Source: an uncultured Holophagales bacterium (GTDB lineage Bacteria; Acidobacteriota; Thermoanaerobaculia; UBA5066). Taken from it: a stretch of DNA of 12,517 nucleotides. The stretch covers positions 1-12,517 of the forward strand of contig CALMDF010000010.1 in assembly GCA_937864895.1 (NCBI GenBank), read 5' to 3'. Positions 1,863 to 10,966 of this stretch are shown here, piece by piece. The position numbers and the translations under genes were made by a program. The notes below the pieces were generated by a model. That model was not told the DNA's origin. It did not search any database and worked only from the letters and a program-made list of their open reading frames with translations. How positions within the stretch are numbered: the stretch's first letter is position 1; the number at the start of each line of letters is the position of its first letter.

Positions 1863-3412
1863 AGGCGCCGGAGCGGGACCGCGCCGCGGCGGTCCTCTTC
1901 GTCCTCCTCCTGGTCTTTCCCTTCGTCGGACGGGCCGTCCTCTCCTCGGACGGCGCGGAAGTCCTCGCCGAGACCCTCGGCCTGTTCGTCACGGGGCGCC
2001 TCGAGGCTCCGACGCCGCCGCCGGCGTACATCGACCCGAACTTCCCGCCGGCGCCGCCCCTCCACTCCCGTTACGGCTTCTTCCCGTCTCTTCTCCTGAC
2101 CCCGTTCGTCGCCCTCGTCTGGCCCGTACGCGGCCTCGTGGGCGCCCCGCTCGTCGACGCGGGAATCGCGCTCGCCTGGCCGGTCGGGACGGCGCTCGCC
2201 TGCTGGGCGTTCCTCCGGCTCGCGCGGGCGCTCCGGCCGGGGACGTCGCCCTTCTGGGCCGCAGGGTTCCTCGCCGGGACGCCGCTCTGGCCATACGCCT
2301 CCGACTCCTTCTTCGAGCCGTACGCGGGTGCGGGGCTCGCGCTCGCTGCGGCCGTCGTCCTCGCGCCGCGGGACGGGGAGGGACCCGGCCGCGCCCTCGC
2401 CGCGGCCCTGGCGTTCGGCGCCGCGTGCTGGCTGAAGCCGGTCGTGTGGGTGACCGCTCCCGTCTTCGTCCTCTCGGCGGCCCTCTCGCGCCGGGACGGG
2501 CGCCGCGCGACGCCCTTCCTCGCCACCCTGCTCGCGGGGCTGGCCGCGGCCTTCGCCCTCGCGCTCGCCGTGAACCTCGTCCGGAACGGCCGGCTCGGCG
2601 ACTTCGGGTACGGGTACGCGAGCCTGCCGTTCGTCACGTCGCTCGCCACCGGGCCGCTGGGCCTTCTCGCGCACCCGTCCCGGGGCCTTCTCCTCTACGC
2701 CCCCGTCGTCGCGCTCTCGGTCCTCGTCGGCCTCCGGTCAGCGTCCCTTCCGGCCAGGGTGCTCTGTTTCGGCGCGCCGCTCGTCCTCGCCCTCGTCTCC
2801 GGGCGCTGGTACGGCTGGCACGGAGGGTCGGCGTGGGGGCCGCGCTACCTCGTACCGGTCCTCGCGCTCGCCGTGGCGCCGGCCGTCCTCGCGCACCGGA
2901 AGGCGGCGATCGCCGTCCTCGGTCTCGGGGCGGCGCTGAACCTCCCGGGCGTCCTCGTCGCGCCGGGCGCGTGGCTGTCGTACGTCGAGAGGCTCGAGGC
3001 GCCGCCGGGGGTCGCGTGGCCGACAGGAGGCGGCGACCGGATGTCCGGGGAGGCCCGACTCTCCCCGCTCTACGGCCACGCCTGGCTGCTGGCCCGCTCG
3101 GCCGGTCTCCACCTGCCGGCGTTCTGGCTCCGGGCGGGGGCGGCGGAAGGGGCGCCCCCGCCGACCGCCCCCGAGTACCTCTCGCCTCGCGTCCTCAGGG
3201 CCGGGCTGGGCCTGCCGGCGGTGAGCCCGGTCGTACCGAACATCCTCTACCGGACCGCGGTCGCCGCTCTGCAGAGGGGCTACGGCGGGCTGTCGCTCCC
3301 CTACGCGCGCGAAGCCCTCCGGATCGACCCGCGCCACCGGCCCGCGGCGGACCTCCTCGGGCAGCTCTCCCGCGCGGGACCCGGACGGACCGGAAAGCCG
3401 GATGCGGAGTAG
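1859..3412 (+). CDS. Polytopic membrane protein, GT-C-like glycosyltransferase with C-terminal TPR-like tail
   Basis: The 517-residue integral membrane protein has about nine or ten hydrophobic segments between residues 10 and 370. The first loop carries an acidic DGAE (31-34), where GT-C enzymes usually keep a catalytic or metal-binding acid. A loop HSRYGFFPSLLLTPF (69-83) and a later WYGWHGGSAWGPRYLVPVL (317-335) match motifs common in uncharacterised lipid-linked-sugar mannosyltransferase-like (PMT/ArnT-type) proteins. Such enzymes take sugar from a polyprenyl-phosphate donor on the outer face of the membrane. The tail from about 463 reads as one TPR-like helix pair (ALQRGYGGLSLPYAREALRI). 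GTG 1859 is chosen because the upstream frame has no hydrophobic content and overlaps the preceding ORF; no strong Shine-Dalgarno is seen, so translational coupling is likely. Donor and acceptor are unknown. Confidence 0.6.
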   Translation: MKAPERDRAAAVLFVLLLVFPFVGRAVLSSDGAEVLAETLGLFVTGRLEAPTPPPAYIDPNFPPAPPLHSRYGFFPSLLLTPFVALVWPVRGLVGAPLVDAGIALAWPVGTALACWAFLRLARALRPGTSPFWAAGFLAGTPLWPYASDSFFEPYAGAGLALAAAVVLAPRDGEGPGRALAAALAFGAACWLKPVVWVTAPVFVLSAALSRRDGRRATPFLATLLAGLAAAFALALAVNLVRNGRLGDFGYGYASLPFVTSLATGPLGLLAHPSRGLLLYAPVVALSVLVGLRSASLPARVLCFGAPLVLALVSGRWYGWHGGSAWGPRYLVPVLALAVAPAVLAHRKAAIAVLGLGAALNLPGVLVAPGAWLSYVERLEAPPGVAWPTGGGDRMSGEARLSPLYGHAWLLARSAGLHLPAFWLRAGAAEGAPPPTAPEYLSPRVLRAGLGLPAVSPVVPNILYRTAVAALQRGYGGLSLPYAREALRIDPRHRPAADLLGQLSRAGPGRTGKPDAE

Positions 3413-3426
3413 CATCCACGGTTTTC

Positions 3427-3431
3427 AGGAG
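3427..3431 (+). promoter_or_regulatory. Shine-Dalgarno AGGAG deciding the phhA start
   Basis: AGGAG touches an ATG at 3432 with no spacer but sits 6 nt before an in-frame GTG at 3438. The spacing favours GTG. The site lies in a 25-nt gap after the glycosyltransferase stop. Confidence 0.45.
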
Positions 3432-3437
3432 ATGTTC

Positions 3438-4316
3438 GTGAAAGTCGGCGGGAACACGGCAACAGGGAAGATCGAAGCCTCGGCCTCCGGCGGCAGGCTG
3501 CCGCACGCGGGCGGCGAGCACGAGCTCGTCCCGCTCGACCCGGACCACCCGGGCTTCAAGGACCAGGTCTACCGGACGCGTCGCAACGCCATCGCGAAGA
3601 TGGCCCTCGAGTACCGCGACGGCGATCCGCTGCCGCACGCCGAGTACACCGAGGACGAGCACGCCGTCTGGCGGACGGTGTGGGAGCACCTCGCGCCCCT
3701 CCACGAGCGGCTGGCCTGCCGGGAGTGGAAGGAGAGCTCGGCGGCGCTCGCCCTCGACCGGGTGCGCGTTCCCCAGCTCGCCGACGTGAACGAGGCCCTG
3801 AAGAGGGGCGCGGGCTTCCGCATGCTCCCCGTCGCCGGCCTCGTCTCGGGCCGGATGTTCCTCGGGATGATGGGGAAGGGGGTCTTCCTCTCCACCCAGT
3901 ACATGCGGCACCACTCCGTGCCGCTCTACACGCCCGAGCCGGACGTCGTCCACGAGCTCGTCGGGCACGCGGCGAGCCTCTTCCACCCCGGCATCGTGAA
4001 GCTCTCCCGGCACTTCGGCGAGGCGGCCTGGCGGGTGGACGACGCCACGCTGAAACGCCTCGAGCTCGTCTACTGGTACACGCTCGAGTTCGGCCTCGTC
4101 GAGGAGGACGGCGTCCTGAAGGCGGTCGGGGCCGGCCTCCTGTCGTCGTTCGGCGAGCTCGGGGGGTTTGGGGCGCACGCCGAGATCCGCCCGCTCGAAT
4201 GCGACGAGGCGGCGTCGATTCCCTACGACCCGACGCGGTACCAGAAGGTCCTCTACGCCTCGCCCTCGTTCGAGAGGATGGTCGAGGACGTCTCCTCCTG
4301 GCTCGACAGGCAGTGA
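3438..4316 (+). CDS. phhA: Phenylalanine-4-hydroxylase (aromatic amino acid hydroxylase)
   Basis: It converts phenylalanine to tyrosine using O2, a tetrahydropterin and non-haem iron in the cytoplasm. Counting from GTG 3438 (292 aa), the iron site is intact: PEPDVVHELVGH supplies His172 and His177, and YWYTLEFGL supplies Glu217. GAGLLSSFGEL (231-241) is also nearly identical to the family consensus. The Trp in YWYT is the residue found in Phe/Tyr hydroxylases; Trp hydroxylases have Phe there, which argues against a Trp hydroxylase. There is no N-terminal ACT domain and no C-terminal tetramerisation helix, as in the monomeric bacterial form. Alternative starts are ATG 3432 and ATG 3402, the latter overlapping the upstream gene by 11 nt. 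The kynurenine formamidase gene follows 10 nt after the stop. Confidence 0.92.
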   Translation: MKVGGNTATGKIEASASGGRLPHAGGEHELVPLDPDHPGFKDQVYRTRRNAIAKMALEYRDGDPLPHAEYTEDEHAVWRTVWEHLAPLHERLACREWKESSAALALDRVRVPQLADVNEALKRGAGFRMLPVAGLVSGRMFLGMMGKGVFLSTQYMRHHSVPLYTPEPDVVHELVGHAASLFHPGIVKLSRHFGEAAWRVDDATLKRLELVYWYTLEFGLVEEDGVLKAVGAGLLSSFGELGGFGAHAEIRPLECDEAASIPYDPTRYQKVLYASPSFERMVEDVSSWLDRQ

Positions 4317-4326
4317 CGCCGAGGCG

Positions 4327-4941
4327 ATGCCGCGGTTCATCGACCTCTCGCCGCCGCTCTCGGGGCGCCTCGCCGTCTGGCCGGGGGACGTGCCGTTCAC
4401 TCGACGGGTCTCGTCGCTCGAGGGCGGGATGACGCTCTCGTCGGTCACGACGACGCTCCACGCGGGCTCGCACGCCGACGCCCCGCTCCACGTGACGCCG
4501 GGCGCGCCGTCGATCGACGAAGTCCCGCTCGGGACGTGGGTCGGCCCCTGCCAGGTCGTCGAGGCGCGGGTCGGGGCCCGCGGGAGGGTCCGCCTCGAGG
4601 ACCTTTCCGCGGAGCCGGCCGCGCCGAGGATCCTCGTGAAGACGGGGACCTTCGAGGACCGCGAGCGCTTCACGGAGGAGTTCGCGGGGCTCTCCGCGTC
4701 GCTGGCGGGCGCGCTGGCCGAACGGGGGGTCGTCCTCGTCGGCATCGACACCCCTTCCGTCGATCCGTGGAACGACGCGGCCCTGGAAGCTCATCACGCC
4801 CTCTCGGCGGCCGGCATCGCCTGGCTGGAGGGTCTCGTCCTGTCGCACGTGACGCCCGGCCTCTACGAGCTCCTGGCCCTGCCCCTCCGGATCGAGGGGG
4901 GCGACGCCTCTCCCGTCCGGGCCGTTCTCGTCGAGCGCTGA
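4327..4941 (+). CDS. kynB: Kynurenine formamidase (arylformamidase)
   Basis: The 204-residue cyclase-family metal hydrolase is expected to split N-formylkynurenine into kynurenine and formate, the second step of tryptophan breakdown. Metal-binding motif HAGSHADAPLH (45-55) gives His45, His49 and Asp51. GIDTPSVDP (139-147), AHHALSAAGIAWLEGL (155-170) and ELLALPLRIEGGDASPVRAVL (181-201, interrupted only by normal variation) follow the bacterial KynB pattern closely. The start ATG 4327 lies 10 nt after phhA, preceded by a weak GAGG; the longer reading back to 4168 is antisense-type composition inside phhA. The two genes are almost certainly co-transcribed. No kynA (tryptophan dioxygenase) or kynU is in the window, so the source of its substrate is not shown. 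Confidence 0.88.
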   Translation: MPRFIDLSPPLSGRLAVWPGDVPFTRRVSSLEGGMTLSSVTTTLHAGSHADAPLHVTPGAPSIDEVPLGTWVGPCQVVEARVGARGRVRLEDLSAEPAAPRILVKTGTFEDRERFTEEFAGLSASLAGALAERGVVLVGIDTPSVDPWNDAALEAHHALSAAGIAWLEGLVLSHVTPGLYELLALPLRIEGGDASPVRAVLVER

Positions 4942-5000: not shown

Positions 5001-6014
5001 ATGCCGAACGTCGACCGGCTGAAGAGACAGATGCTGCGCGAGGCCGTCCGGGAGAACCTGGACGTGATCGAGGGCCGCCCCCCCGCCCCCCGCAGGGACG
5101 ATCGCTGGGCGAGGCTCGCCGTGCGGGCGCTGGCCGTCCTCGGCGTCCCGCTCGTCTTCCTCGCCTCGATCAACGCCTTCTCGGGAAACGACGCCTCCTC
5201 GCCCGAGGTCGTCGTCGTGCCGCAGCGGACGGTCCCCGCGGCGCCGGGCGAGCCTGCCCTCGAGAACGTCGCCTGGCCCGCGCCGCGGTCGATCGACCCG
5301 ACCCTCTTCCACCTCGACGTGAAGACGGTCGTCCTCGACGCCGGCCACGGGGGGGCGGACCCGGGCGCCCTGACCGCGGACGGGCTGCTCGAGAAGGAGA
5401 TCACGCTCGACCTGGCCGAGCGCGTCGCCACGAAGCTCCGGGGAGGGCTCTTCCAGGTCGTGATGACGAGGAGCGGCGACGAGACGCTCTCCCTCAGGGA
5501 GCGTTCGCGCCGGGCGCGGGAGGCCGGCGGGGACGTCCTCGTCTCGATCCACCTGAACTCGATCCCGCGGCCCGACCGGCGTGGCGTCGAGACCTACTAC
5601 CTCGGGCCCACGGACGACCCCGCGATCCGCGCGCTGGCGGGGGCCGAGAACCGCTCCTCGGGCTATTCTCTGGCCGATTTCAGGGGACTTCTCGAGGGGG
5701 TCTACGTGGACGTGCGCCAGGCGGAGTCGCGGAGGCTCGCGGAGTCGGTCCAGGGCGAGCTCGTCTCGTCCCTCAGGAAGGTGTCGCCCCAGGTCGGGGA
5801 CCGGGGCGTGAAGAGCGCTCCTTTCGTCGTCCTCATCGCCTCGGAGATGCCGGGGATCCTCGCCGAGGTCTCCTGTCTCTCGCATGCCGAGGAGGCTCGC
5901 CTCCTTCGCGACACGGCCTTTCGGGAAGCCATTGCGGATGCGCTCGCGCGGGGAGTGCGAGCCTACGCGGACTCGCGGAACCTCGCGGGAGCGGGAAGGA
6001 GCGGGAACGGATGA
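5001..6014 (+). CDS. Membrane-anchored N-acetylmuramoyl-L-alanine amidase (Amidase_3)
   Basis: It is predicted to cut the amide bond between N-acetylmuramic acid and L-alanine, removing stem peptides from peptidoglycan and leaving naked glycan strands. The 337-residue protein has a 40-residue charged cytoplasmic start, one hydrophobic anchor (about 39-60, ALAVLGVPLVFLASINAF) and a Pro-rich linker. The periplasmic catalytic domain spans about 107-322. Zinc ligands are His116 (DAGHGG), Glu131 (LEKEITL) and His184 (SIHLNS); the catalytic Glu289 lies in LAEVSCLS. DRGVKSAPFVVL (267-278) is also a family signature. All key residues are present, so the enzyme should be active. No AMIN, LysM or SPOR targeting domain is fused to it; a SPOR domain is supplied by the third gene of the operon. 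Its TGA overlaps the next ATG (ATGA at 6011-6014), pointing to translational coupling. Confidence 0.88.
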   Translation: MPNVDRLKRQMLREAVRENLDVIEGRPPAPRRDDRWARLAVRALAVLGVPLVFLASINAFSGNDASSPEVVVVPQRTVPAAPGEPALENVAWPAPRSIDPTLFHLDVKTVVLDAGHGGADPGALTADGLLEKEITLDLAERVATKLRGGLFQVVMTRSGDETLSLRERSRRAREAGGDVLVSIHLNSIPRPDRRGVETYYLGPTDDPAIRALAGAENRSSGYSLADFRGLLEGVYVDVRQAESRRLAESVQGELVSSLRKVSPQVGDRGVKSAPFVVLIASEMPGILAEVSCLSHAEEARLLRDTAFREAIADALARGVRAYADSRNLAGAGRSGNG

Positions 6015-7027
6015 GCGGGAAAAAGGACGTCTTCCACGTCGGGATCGACCTCGGCACCTCGAGGAGCGCGATCGCCGCGTCGAACGGGCAGCGTCACGTC
6101 GTGGAGAGCTACGTCGGCTGGCCCGTCGACATGGTCGCCCGCAAGGTCGTCAAGAAGGCGGTCCTCTTCGGGCACGAGGCCCTCGAGAACCGGCCGATGC
6201 TCGACCTGCACCGCCCGCTGGAGAGGGGCCTCATCAAGGAGGGCTCGACGAAGGCGGAGGCGGCCGTGCGCGAGCTCCTCGGGCACCTCATCGAGAAGGC
6301 GGGCGGGGCCGGGAAGACCGTCCAGGCCGTCGTCGGGGTCCCGGCGGAGGCGATGCGCGTCTCGCGCCAGCACCTCAGGAATGCCGTGAAGGGGGTGGCC
6401 GACAGCCTCCTCCTCGTCTCGGAGCCCTTCGCCGTGGCCTACGGGATGGACGCGCTCCTCCACACGATGATCATCGACATCGGGGCCGGGACGAGCGACT
6501 TCTGCGTCATGAACGGCCGTTACCCGACCGACGACGACCAGCGGACGCTCACCCACGCGGGCGATTCCGTCGACGAGCAGCTCATCCTCCAGATCCGCGC
6601 GCGCCACCCCGAGGCGAACTTCTCGATCCACATGGTGCGCGACTGGAAGGAGAAGCACAGCTTCGTCGGCGAGCCGAAGGGCCCCGTCGTCGTGGAGGCC
6701 CCGGTCCGGGGCAAGCCGACGGGCCTCGAGATCACCGCCGAGATGAGGAAGGCGTGCGAGAGCCTCGTCGGGCCGCTCTCGGAGACGATGCTCGACCTCC
6801 TCTCCCGCGTCGACCCGGAGTACCAGCAGCGCGTCCGCAACAACATCGTCCTGGCCGGGGGCGGGTCGCTGATTCCCGGCCTCGCCGCGGCGCTGGAGAA
6901 GACCCTCGAGGACGTCGGCGGAGGAAAGGTCCGCGCCGTGGAAGACCCCGTCTTCGCCGGCGCGAACGGTTCCCTCGCCATCGCCGCGGATGCCCCCGAG
7001 GGCGACTGGGAGCGCCTCGCAGGATGA
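6011..7027 (+). CDS. MamK-like bacterial actin
   Basis: The 338-residue actin-fold ATPase is predicted to form cytoplasmic filaments. Phosphate-1 loop GIDLGTSRS (11-19), phosphate-2 IIDIGAGTSD (154-163) and the adenosine motif VLAGGGS (280-286) are intact. Glu138 (VSEPFAVAYG) and Asp156 match residues reported as needed for ATP hydrolysis in Magnetospirillum MamK. Blocks resembling MamK more than MreB, ParM or FtsA, recalled from memory rather than aligned, are DQRTLTHAGDSVDEQL (176-191), RHPE (198-201), SFVG (217-220) with a preceding KEK, DPEYQQRV (268-275) and EDPVFAG (311-317). The length is close to the 347 residues of MamK. AAGGAG (5996-6001) lies 9 nt before ATG 6011. Overlaps join it to the amidase and SPOR genes, and no mam/mms/mad gene is nearby. 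Generic pipelines may call it 'rod shape-determining protein'. Confidence 0.85.
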   Translation: MSGKKDVFHVGIDLGTSRSAIAASNGQRHVVESYVGWPVDMVARKVVKKAVLFGHEALENRPMLDLHRPLERGLIKEGSTKAEAAVRELLGHLIEKAGGAGKTVQAVVGVPAEAMRVSRQHLRNAVKGVADSLLLVSEPFAVAYGMDALLHTMIIDIGAGTSDFCVMNGRYPTDDDQRTLTHAGDSVDEQLILQIRARHPEANFSIHMVRDWKEKHSFVGEPKGPVVVEAPVRGKPTGLEITAEMRKACESLVGPLSETMLDLLSRVDPEYQQRVRNNIVLAGGGSLIPGLAAALEKTLEDVGGGKVRAVEDPVFAGANGSLAIAADAPEGDWERLAG

Positions 7028-8403
7028 GCGGGGAAGATCCCGCCGCCCCGCGCGTCAGGCGCATGCTTCCCTCGGTCTCCGAGGTCCTGAAGGAGCTGAC
7101 GGCGCGGGCGCCGATCGAGCCCGACGTCGCCTTCCGCGTCGCGCGGGAAGTCTGCGCCGAAGAGCTGAAACGGATCCGCGACGCCGGCGGCGACAGCGTC
7201 CCGCTGGAGGAGCTCGTCCAGCGCGCCCTGAAGCGAGCCACGGGGGGCGTTCCGGCCCCGCCGCCCGTCGTCGAGCCCGTCCCCGAGCCCGCGCCGCCGG
7301 AACCCCGGGAGGACGGTGCCGTGGAGGACCCCTTCGCCGAGACGACGGGAGCGATGGACCTGCGCTGGGACCGCGACGTGCGCGAGCCCTTCTCCGAGCC
7401 CCAGCCCCCCGTCCCGTCCGTGGGGGGCGAGCTCCCCGCGGGCGCCGCGACGGCCGTCGAGGCGCCGGTCCTCCCCCCTCTTTCGTTCGACGCCGCGCCC
7501 GCTCCCGAGCCGCAGCCCGTTTTCCTCGACGTGCCGGAGGCGCCGGAGGGAATCGGCGACGAGACCCTCAACCGGCTGTCCCGGGAAGCCGAGTCGATCG
7601 ACCTGCAGTCGGTCTTCACGAAGGAGAGCGGGCCGGCCTCCGCCCCCCTCGCCGCAACCGGCGGGGACGCCGCCGAGCCCGCGGTCCCGGAGCCCTTCGA
7701 GGATGACGAAGACACCGTCCTGACGGTTCCGCGAGGCCGTGGCGGGAAGGAGGGCGGCCCCCGCGTCGGGGTCATCCTGGCCGTCGTCGGCGCCCTTGCG
7801 GCGCTCGGAGGCCTCGGCTATCTCCTCGCCGGCCTGTGGATGGAGAGGGACGACGTCCCTCCGCCCGTCGCGGTGGCCCGCCCGAGGCCGGAGGCCCGGC
7901 CGGCCCCGGACGCGGTGAGGGCCGCGCCCGTCGAGAGCTCTCCCGAGGCGGCTCCGGCGCCCGCCCCCGACCCCGCCGTCTCGCCGGCCGCCGCCCTCGA
8001 GGCGCCGAAACCGACGGCAGCCCCCGCCGTTCCGACCGCCGCCCCCGCTTCGGAGGCGGTGGCTCCGGCCCCCGCCCCCGCCCGGGTGACCCTACCGGTC
8101 CGCCAGAGCCGCGACGGGTACATGGTGACGAGGGACCGCGCCGGCCAGCCGGAGGTCTACTCGATCCACTTCACCTCGTACCAGGACAGGGCCACGGCCG
8201 AGCGCGACCTCGAGCGCGTCTCGGCGCTCGTCGGGCGCAAGGGCTACGTTGCCGAGATCGACCTCGGCGCGAAGGGCGTCTGGCAGAGGGTCATGATCGG
8301 CGCCTTCCCGACGGCGGAAGAGGCAAAGGCCGTGCGGGCAGAGCTGGCCGCGAAAGGGACCCGCGACCTGGGGTGGGTCTACCGGGTCGTCGCTCCGGAC
8401 TAG
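7024..8403 (+). CDS. Single-pass membrane protein with C-terminal SPOR domain
   Basis: The 459-residue protein has four regions. Residues 14-72 are a predicted helical module starting LPSVSEVLKEL. Residues 75-245 form a long Pro/Glu/Ala-rich, probably disordered cytoplasmic segment containing a conserved-looking island (about 178-200, ETLNRLSREAESIDLQSVF). Residues 247-272 are a single membrane span. A Pro/Ala-rich periplasmic linker (275-355) leads to a SPOR domain at about 376-455 (VYSIHFTSYQD ... WQRVMIGAFPTAEEAKAV). SPOR domains bind peptidoglycan lacking stem peptides, the product of amidases such as the one two genes upstream. ATG 7024 overlaps the actin stop (ATGA), with GGGAG at 7008-7012. 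The topology puts roughly 245 residues next to the actin filament and the SPOR domain at the wall. FtsN and DamX share the general layout, but no specific orthology is claimed. Confidence 0.82.
   Translation: MSGEDPAAPRVRRMLPSVSEVLKELTARAPIEPDVAFRVAREVCAEELKRIRDAGGDSVPLEELVQRALKRATGGVPAPPPVVEPVPEPAPPEPREDGAVEDPFAETTGAMDLRWDRDVREPFSEPQPPVPSVGGELPAGAATAVEAPVLPPLSFDAAPAPEPQPVFLDVPEAPEGIGDETLNRLSREAESIDLQSVFTKESGPASAPLAATGGDAAEPAVPEPFEDDEDTVLTVPRGRGGKEGGPRVGVILAVVGALAALGGLGYLLAGLWMERDDVPPPVAVARPRPEARPAPDAVRAAPVESSPEAAPAPAPDPAVSPAAALEAPKPTAAPAVPTAAPASEAVAPAPAPARVTLPVRQSRDGYMVTRDRAGQPEVYSIHFTSYQDRATAERDLERVSALVGRKGYVAEIDLGAKGVWQRVMIGAFPTAEEAKAVRAELAAKGTRDLGWVYRVVAPD
8400..8403. other. Shared CTAG: overlapping convergent stop codons
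   Basis: TAG at 8401-8403 ends the SPOR gene, and the complement of 8400-8402 (also TAG) ends the SDR gene. The two convergent genes therefore overlap by 3 bp with no room for a terminator between them. Confidence 0.9.
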
Positions 8404-9121: not shown

Positions 9122-9157
9122 GCACGCAATCTTATCCGGGTGTCGCCGCACCGGCGG

Positions 9158-9178
9158 CGCCGGGCGTTGATCCCGGCG
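9158..9178. repeat. Inverted repeat in the SDR / diguanylate cyclase divergent region
   Basis: CGCCGGG (9158-9164) and CCCGGCG (9172-9178) are perfect 7-bp arms around a 7-nt loop CGTTGAT. It lies between the two divergent start codons and inside the 5' region of the diguanylate cyclase message. It could be a protein-binding dyad or a leader hairpin, but short GC arms arise often by chance at this base composition. Confidence 0.3.
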
Positions 9179-9202
9179 GCGTCCTGCGAGATGCTGACCG
9201 GA

Positions 9203-10966
9203 ATGGTGCGGCGATCGAGCGCCCTGTCCGTCGTGGTCGTCGCGGCCCTTCTCGCCGGTTTCGGGGCGAGCGGGCAGACGCCCGAGGTCCTTCGGGTCGA
9301 ACGGCTCCCGGCGAGCCTCGCCGGGACCTGGGAGTTTGCGCTCGCCGATCCCCCGGGAGGCGTCGCGGAGCTCGACGCTCTCACCTTCCGGCCGCTGAAC
9401 GTTCCCGGAACGTGGCAGAAGTCCGGCGTTCCGGGGCACGGTACGGGCTGGTACCGCGTCACGTTCGACCTCGACCCCTCGCTGGTGAATGCGCCCCTCG
9501 CCTTCGTCTGCCCGCAGATCAGGGACGTTGACGAGGTCTTCCTGGACGGACTGCCGGTCGGGAGGACGGGGGAATTCCCCCCGGAGTACGACAAGGGAAC
9601 GGTCGTCGAGCGGATCTACGAGCTCCCCCCGTCGAGGACCGCGGTCCCCGGGCGGCACACGCTCGCCGTGAAGGTCTACAACGCCGGACCGAGGGCGGGA
9701 GGTATCACGGCGGCTCCGCGGATCGACTCCGTCTCGTCCGCGTTCCAGGGCCGGGCGATGCGCGAGGCGCCGCGGGCCCTCCTCGCCGCCGCCTTCGGCG
9801 CGCTGGGGCTCTTCTCCCTCTTCTTCTACCTGCGCGACCGCGGCCAGACCGACTTCCTCTACTTCTTCCTCTCGACGACCGGAACGGCGGTCTTCATCGT
9901 CTCGTGGCTCTCGATCTGGGTCGTCTCGGGGCTGCCGCTGTCGTTTCTCTTCCGCGTGGGGCACGCCGGGATGTTCGCGGTCCCGGCCTCGACGCTCCTC
10001 CTCTTCCTGAGGTTCTTCGAGAGGCCGCTGACGAAGGCCCACCGGCTTCTCCTCGTCGCGCAGGGAGCGGGAGGCGCCGCGTGTCTCCTCTGGCCCCGCG
10101 CCGACGACCTCTACTACCTGCTCCCCGCGGGCTTCGTCCTCGGGGCCGCGGCCGCCGCCGACGTCACCTTCAACCTGGCCGTCGCGGCGCGCAGGCGTGT
10201 CCCCCAGGCGCGCCTGCTCCTCGGCGGCACCCTCCTGACGGTGGCCGCGGCGGCGTTCGACGGGGCGGGCGTCCTCGGCCTGGGCATCGGCGCGTCCGTC
10301 GATTTCGCGCTCGCCGGGCCGGCGTTCTTCGTCCTGATGAGCTGCTTCCTCGCGGCGATCGCCGAACGGCTCGCGCGGCTCCGCCTGGCCGCGTCGACCG
10401 ACCCCCTGACGGGCCTGGCGAACAGGGCGGTCCTCTTCGACCGCCTCACCCTGGAGATCGCGCGGGCGCGGCGCCACTCGCATCCCGTTGCCCTCGGGAT
10501 CCTGGACCTCGACGGGTTCAAGGATTTCAACGACTGCCACGGGCACGTCGCCGGCGACAGGCTCCTCGTGTCCGTGGCGAGGTCCCTGACGGACTCGATC
10601 CGCGACACCGACCTGGCGGCCCGTTTCGGGGGGGACGAGTTCGTCGTCCTCCTCCCCGAGGCCGACGCGACGAAGGCCGTCGCCTGCCTCGAGCGGATCC
10701 GGACCTCCATCTCGAGGGCGCGCGTCGCGGGTACGGGCGACGGCGCCACGGCCTCCGCGGGCGTCGCCGTCTTCGACCCTGCCGTGAGAGCCTCCGTGTC
10801 CGTCTCCGCGTGGCTCAGGCAGGCCGACGCCGCCCTCTACGCCGCGAAGGCGGCCGGGCGGGACCGCGTCCTCGTCGCGCACGGCGCTCCTCCCGGTGGT
10901 TCCACGACCGGAAACTCCGGAAGCCACGAGCAGGGCGTCCGGCGCGTACCGGGGTCCCCTCTCTGA
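9203..10966 (+). CDS. Membrane diguanylate cyclase: jelly-roll sensor, 7TM region, GGDEF domain
   Basis: The product (587 aa from ATG 9203) should make cyclic di-GMP from two GTP. A signal peptide (VRR then SALSVVVVAALLAGFGASG, about 1-25) leads to a beta-rich extracytoplasmic domain (about 39-179). Its elements LAGTWEFALAD, NVPGTWQKSG, GTGWYRVTFDL and DEVFLDGLPVG resemble the galactose-binding jelly-roll at the front of GH2 glycosidases. Roughly seven membrane spans follow (190-390, 7TMR-DISM-like). The cytoplasmic GGDEF domain (about 397-559) has DPLTGLANR, metal-site DLDGF, an intact GGDEF (476-480), and an RxxD inhibitory site (RDTD) 5 residues before it. The enzyme therefore looks active and product-inhibited. 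ATG 9191 is an equally possible start; neither has a strong Shine-Dalgarno. The rluA-family gene follows after 14 nt. Confidence 0.85.
   Translation: MVRRSSALSVVVVAALLAGFGASGQTPEVLRVERLPASLAGTWEFALADPPGGVAELDALTFRPLNVPGTWQKSGVPGHGTGWYRVTFDLDPSLVNAPLAFVCPQIRDVDEVFLDGLPVGRTGEFPPEYDKGTVVERIYELPPSRTAVPGRHTLAVKVYNAGPRAGGITAAPRIDSVSSAFQGRAMREAPRALLAAAFGALGLFSLFFYLRDRGQTDFLYFFLSTTGTAVFIVSWLSIWVVSGLPLSFLFRVGHAGMFAVPASTLLLFLRFFERPLTKAHRLLLVAQGAGGAACLLWPRADDLYYLLPAGFVLGAAAAADVTFNLAVAARRRVPQARLLLGGTLLTVAAAAFDGAGVLGLGIGASVDFALAGPAFFVLMSCFLAAIAERLARLRLAASTDPLTGLANRAVLFDRLTLEIARARRHSHPVALGILDLDGFKDFNDCHGHVAGDRLLVSVARSLTDSIRDTDLAARFGGDEFVVLLPEADATKAVACLERIRTSISRARVAGTGDGATASAGVAVFDPAVRASVSVSAWLRQADAALYAAKAAGRDRVLVAHGAPPGGSTTGNSGSHEQGVRRVPGSPL

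Follow-up and report, generated by a model that had tools for sequence, protein, structure and literature searches.

We describe a conserved gene pair, carried by bacteria that are for the most part uncultured, in which a membrane-anchored cell-wall amidase is encoded directly ahead of a MamK-like actin. The pair lies in a 12,517-nucleotide stretch (the window, meaning the whole stretch analysed) of contig CALMDF010000010.1 from an uncultured Holophagales bacterium, part of a 75%-complete metagenome-assembled genome (MAG). Three genes follow one another there on the + strand: an Amidase_3 gene (5001-6014), the actin gene (6011-7027) and a gene for a transmembrane (TM) protein with a SPOR domain (7024-8403). 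We consider it rather probable that the amidase and the actin form a two-protein core that positions peptidoglycan cutting from inside the cell. Judged by gene content across lineages, the predicted core of the system is this pair, with a third, wall-sensing protein added in some lineages only. An initial annotation had seen in the trio an actin-guided wall-cutting device, with the SPOR protein bridging the filament to the sites of amidase action; the device stands as the best reading and its gene adjacency is found in many genomes, and the part given to the SPOR protein is not supported. The ATGA overlaps said to join the genes (6011-6014 and 7024-7027) are present, as are the open reading frames (ORFs) on either side and their frames, and the Pfam calls agree with the domains named for all three proteins: Amidase_3 (E 2.7e-45), MreB_Mbl for the actin fold (E 2e-22) and SPOR (E 6.7e-7).

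An amidase stands directly upstream, on the same strand, of 104 of 106 distinct related actins (loci merged by actin sequence), far beyond chance. For the two misses the available sequence ends 274 and 4 bases upstream of the actin, and a copy of the locus with 274 bases (L174) carries an amidase fragment (E 4.3e-8). A strong actin match (E <1e-100) was obtained in 29 of 40 genomes, the window's own and its relatives, and in each of the 29 the amidase gene comes immediately before it. Sampling 396 genomes of the phylum returned the actin in 43, namely 40 of the 50 genomes of the class among the matches listed and three outside the class; a broad scan of one genome per species over 84,980 species confirmed at least 559 stretches, from which the best 80 loci were kept. 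The concern that the adjacency might belong to a single genome thus falls away. The neighbours on both sides differ from locus to locus, forming 43 clusters ahead of the pair (93 loci) and 28 behind it (98 loci), singletons included, and therefore the adjacency is not general synteny. The amidase search found no tail-type amidase, that is, none with the cytoplasmic tail described below, in any of 13 actin-less genomes of the class: in 12 the only amidase has an open frame of 476-591 residues, is 37-43% identical and shows a match that begins no earlier than query residue 68; in the remaining one (G009, 83% complete) there was no amidase at E 1e-12. Further afield, the phylum of G414 has the actin in two of 95 genomes, both with the amidase. 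The 48 paired actins sampled for a 61-row tree all group to one side of a single branch (support 61/100; 82% of bootstrap trees), so that the pairing may possibly have arisen once. Taken as a whole, the pairing suggests that an inner filament may decide the site of wall cutting.

The amidase itself offers a candidate for the physical link. Partner amidases open with about 25 residues followed by a basic stretch and then the TM segment, and the tail has the consensus R-[LV]-K-R-x-[LIM]-[LVI]-x-x-A-V-x-[ED]-N-[LV], in short form KRxLLRxAVxEN. In the window this motif occupies residues 6-25 (RLKRQMLREAVRENLDVIEG; 5016-5075). The pattern is present in 93 of the 98 partner amidases whose catalytic start lies in a single reading frame (about 43 effective tail sequences), as compared to 32 of 4900 shuffled sequences. 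Among the five misses, L003 keeps AVREN, its frame opening just ahead of it; L065 and L128 have Gln for the Glu/Asp preceding the Asn; and L060 and L159 have no tail within the frame. None of 18 readable non-partner amidases, from 20 loci of actin-less class genomes and others, has the motif. In an alignment of 36 sequences Asn19 is invariant (36/36), the sole such residue outside the catalytic domain, and mean conservation over residues 7-25 is 1.92 bits, against 1.17 for the juxtamembrane stretch, 1.10 for the TM segment and 1.00 for the linker; the tail is thus nearly as conserved as the three enzyme segments (2.14-2.31 bits). With a tail profile, the partner amidase was the lone match under E 0.01 in six of seven pair-bearing genomes, its tail reaching only E 0.19 in the seventh (G200); of two pair-less genomes, G015 gave a best E of 0.88 and G020 nothing up to E 1. 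A diverged pair from another phylum (L236, with the same gene in L250) retains the tail (12.7 bits; highest score among 902 other proteins, 11.2). By analogy with LmdC on bactofilin, we propose that the tail may dock the amidase on the actin filament. On the actin side, position 68 is Arg in all 99 paired actins compared and in none of 10 unpaired ones, and positions such as R68 are candidates for the binding site. Further residues characteristic of the paired actins are R116, R123, W212, P255 and D262.

We also considered whether the motif is portable. A look-alike, RRRGVLRAIMESN, ends the coiled-coil protein of L240 and L241, and is unsupported because it scores -0.8 with the position-specific scoring matrix of the tail, against the same background maximum of 11.2. 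The gene for this coiled-coil protein immediately precedes a MamK-type actin that is unpaired.

Several points weigh against the positioning role proposed here. The 106 actins were collected by similarity to the window's actin and are biased to its clade, the bootstrap support for the paired-actin branch is just 61, most of the genomes are MAGs, and the tail pattern was composed after the tails had been inspected. MamK-type actins occur in 11 of 198 genomes of the phylum to which G409 belongs, and G409 and G701 have the amidase with them; the other nine, two of which carry tandem actins, have no amidase within about 1.5 kb of the actin, so that a MamK-type actin alone does not require one. Finally, the conservation of the tail could instead reflect dimerisation or another partner. 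In its full form, this alternative holds that the tail helix dimerises the amidase or binds a divisome protein, that the actin has some other partner, and that the pair is kept for co-expression alone. The helix is amphipathic, with its conserved Asn amid hydrophobic positions, which would suit a coiled coil; against that, the tail-type amidase occurs only together with the actin in the genomes examined, and the flanking genes change freely around the pair. We regard this account as unlikely.

The amidase (337 aa) scores 154.9 bits with Amidase_3 (Pfam cut-off 27) and belongs to that family, with its catalytic domain at residues 110-320 (5328-5960). Its zinc site is complete, as first described: H116, E131, H184 and E289 are all present, the first three in 98 of 98 relatives and E289 in 96 of 98. 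A model made with AlphaFold2 (AF2; five models, mean predicted local distance difference test score, pLDDT, from 82 for the best to 69 for the worst) gives a helix at residues 2-24 (block means 77-85), a TM helix at 34-59, where hydropathy places the TM segment at 39-57 (5115-5171), a low-confidence periplasmic linker (pLDDT <50 at residues 60-70) and a mostly confident catalytic domain. Residue E216 (codon 5646-5648), within the AF2 helix 207-218, aligns with E167 of AmiA; of 98 relatives, 97 have Glu at this position and one has a gap. In AmiA, according to the accessible part of PMC10268282, Glu167 sits on a helix that keeps the active site closed as long as no activator is bound. Because of this alignment we infer that the window's enzyme carries an autoinhibitory region and requires an activator.

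A working scheme starts from the actin's alignment with MamK and its co-inheritance with the amidase, both read from sequence. The actin would polymerise as MamK does, and the cytoplasmic helix with Asn19 would bind the filament, so that the TM-held amidase is concentrated in the wall above it. Release of the autoinhibited enzyme, which E216 suggests, would fall to an activator in the periplasm, probably one of the LytM factors, the filament thereby setting the place and the activator the time of cutting. The likely outcome would be local wall remodelling, in daughter separation, at a pole or in curvature. Since the amidase crosses the membrane and has a conserved cytoplasmic peptide of its own, filament and wall could be bridged without a SPOR protein.

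The SPOR protein (459 aa) has the layout first described, of some 245 cytoplasmic residues, one span, a Pro/Ala linker and a SPOR domain. The hydrophobic stretch lies at residues 250-268 (7771-7827), with basic residues ahead of it, leaving about 249 cytoplasmic residues; Pro/Ala-rich stretches are present, and the SPOR domain at 378-445 (PF05036; 8155-8358) scores 30 bits (cut-off 21). An alignment of 11 relatives marks off a conserved N-terminal cytoplasmic domain (7024-7233), which matches no Pfam family (best E 0.061) and which may resemble the N-terminus of SelA. The distribution is narrow. Of 105 distinct loci, 17 have the gene next after the actin, the trio having been found only in the window's order and in near-related named loci of unstated rank (e.g., L103, L104 and L155), and a model of the N-terminal domain found it in the four pair-bearing f1/f2 genomes of the 28 tested and in none of the 24 others, bar a weak 62-aa frame in G018 (E 0.005). 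The SPOR protein is therefore at most a lineage accessory. The bridge first envisaged, in which the N-terminal domain binds the actin and the SPOR domain finds the denuded glycan made by the amidase, draws some support from the ATGA junction with the operon in the window, from the presence of the gene behind the pair among near relatives and its absence from the pair-less G009, G015 and G017, and from RgsS/AmiC, where recruitment of a SPOR protein by amidase products is established, as far as the available portion of PMC7822825 goes. With the gene adjoining the actin in so few loci, and its N-terminal domain not found in the other pair-bearing class genomes tested, a bridging role is quite doubtful; it would also leave the conserved amidase tail unexplained.

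In 16 other loci of the 105 the pair is flanked instead by a PilZ-TM-AMIN protein, an adjacency that is suggestive only. Its AMIN part has the expected fold in the third protein of these other lineages; by Pfam it lies outside the family, at 19.0 bits against a cut-off of 20.5 in one of ten scanned proteins and with no match in the other nine. As an actin-specific partner the protein was rejected, the gene being present also in the actin-less G020, G023, G026, G032 and G399 (its PilZ and AMIN portions being split over two reading frames in G026). The second gene past the SPOR gene in the window (9140-10966, + strand) encodes a 7TMR-DISM and GGDEF diguanylate cyclase by Pfam, and its cluster recurs in nine loci. 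Together with the PilZ domain of the alternative third protein, this neighbour hints at a link to cyclic di-GMP (c-di-GMP).

These third proteins allow the scheme to be extended. The TM-SPOR protein of the window's lineage would bind denuded glycan made by the amidase and relay this to the cytoplasm in a positive feedback, and in other lineages PilZ-TM-AMIN may replace it. More broadly, it is conceivable, and we put it forward tentatively, that a distinct MamK-sister actin family forms a cytoskeleton for morphogenesis and brings along its own TM amidase by means of a dedicated docking peptide. Sensors of the wall that can replace one another, TM-SPOR or PilZ-TM-AMIN (the second perhaps gated by c-di-GMP), would then couple filament and cut wall in a feedback loop.

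The actin (338 aa) has as its closest solved relatives by sequence the MamK structures 5ljw, 5jyg and 5ljv (about 4e-74), labelled "Actin-like ATPase"; 8r2n (BeeR; 1.5e-46) and the MreB structure 1jce (3.8e-13) follow. The alignment with MamK is full-length and includes the nucleotide-site motifs. With the MamK model NF040964 it scores 364.6 bits, below the curated cut-off of 400, and related actins of eight further genomes score 363.5-380.4; it likewise falls outside BeeR (NF053558; 221.4 bits against 530, the match starting at actin residue 9) and MreB (TIGR00904; 62.4 bits against 365.75). Because its nearest structures are MamK and its scores lie below the cut-offs, the actin is by sequence nearest to MamK, yet not to be filed as MamK. 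A second actin-type match elsewhere in the source genome, 28% identical, is taken to be MreB. L253 and L254 have tandem MamK-type actins with a TM coiled-coil gene between them, possibly of magnetosome type. By Pfam no magnetosome gene is among the ten window ORFs scanned, a genome-wide marker search not having been made. It is highly improbable that the actin serves to organise some organelle, whether magnetosome-like or of another kind, and that the amidase opens the wall for envelope structures: MamK is indeed the closest characterised relative of the actin, but the MamK model score lies under the cut-off, and the neighbouring genes, judged by Pfam or by inspection, vary and seem to serve housekeeping or signalling.

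Elsewhere in the window, Pfam identifies a biopterin-dependent aromatic amino acid hydroxylase and then a PF04199 cyclase (3402-4941, + strand), which several relatives also have ahead of the pair, and a SpoU-family rRNA methylase (912-1727, - strand).

A literature search, with subscription journals largely outside its scope, showed no description of a pair of MamK-like actin and amidase among the titles and abstract openings listed. We know of no TM hydrolase gene paired with an actin in B. subtilis. The actins of that organism do control wall hydrolases, as in MreBH-LytE and Mbl-FtsEX/CwlO; unlike the window pair, these involve the MreB family and secreted enzymes, according to the accessible text of PMC3817527. 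MamK positions magnetosomes, whereas the window's actin is paired with an amidase. BeeR offers another point of comparison, being likewise a MamK-related actin of non-magnetotactic bacteria; the window's actin lacks the N-terminal extension of 30-50 aa that BeeR has, and actins of the BeeR type in bacteria without magnetosomes have no known job in what is available of PMC11929497. The near-fixed partner described here, with a short candidate docking peptide containing one invariant Asn, makes the job of this actin directly testable. In RgsS/AmiC of S. meliloti a SPOR protein is positioned by the product of an amidase, as proposed here for the window's lineage; unlike the window trio, no actin partner is mentioned in the portion of PMC7822825 at hand. 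In mode of action, the closest precedent is bactofilin-LmdC. As the available part of PMC10945521 describes it, the genes for the filament protein BacA and the hydrolase LmdC overlap, the hydrolase has a short cytoplasmic N-terminus, one TM segment and a periplasmic enzyme, and its cytoplasmic tail binds BacA. The window pair differs from this module of bactofilin and M23 in that the filament protein has an actin fold, the enzyme is Amidase_3 and the binding of tail to filament is here a proposal. If this proposal is true, an actin/amidase version would be added to the bactofilin/endopeptidase mode of cell shaping.

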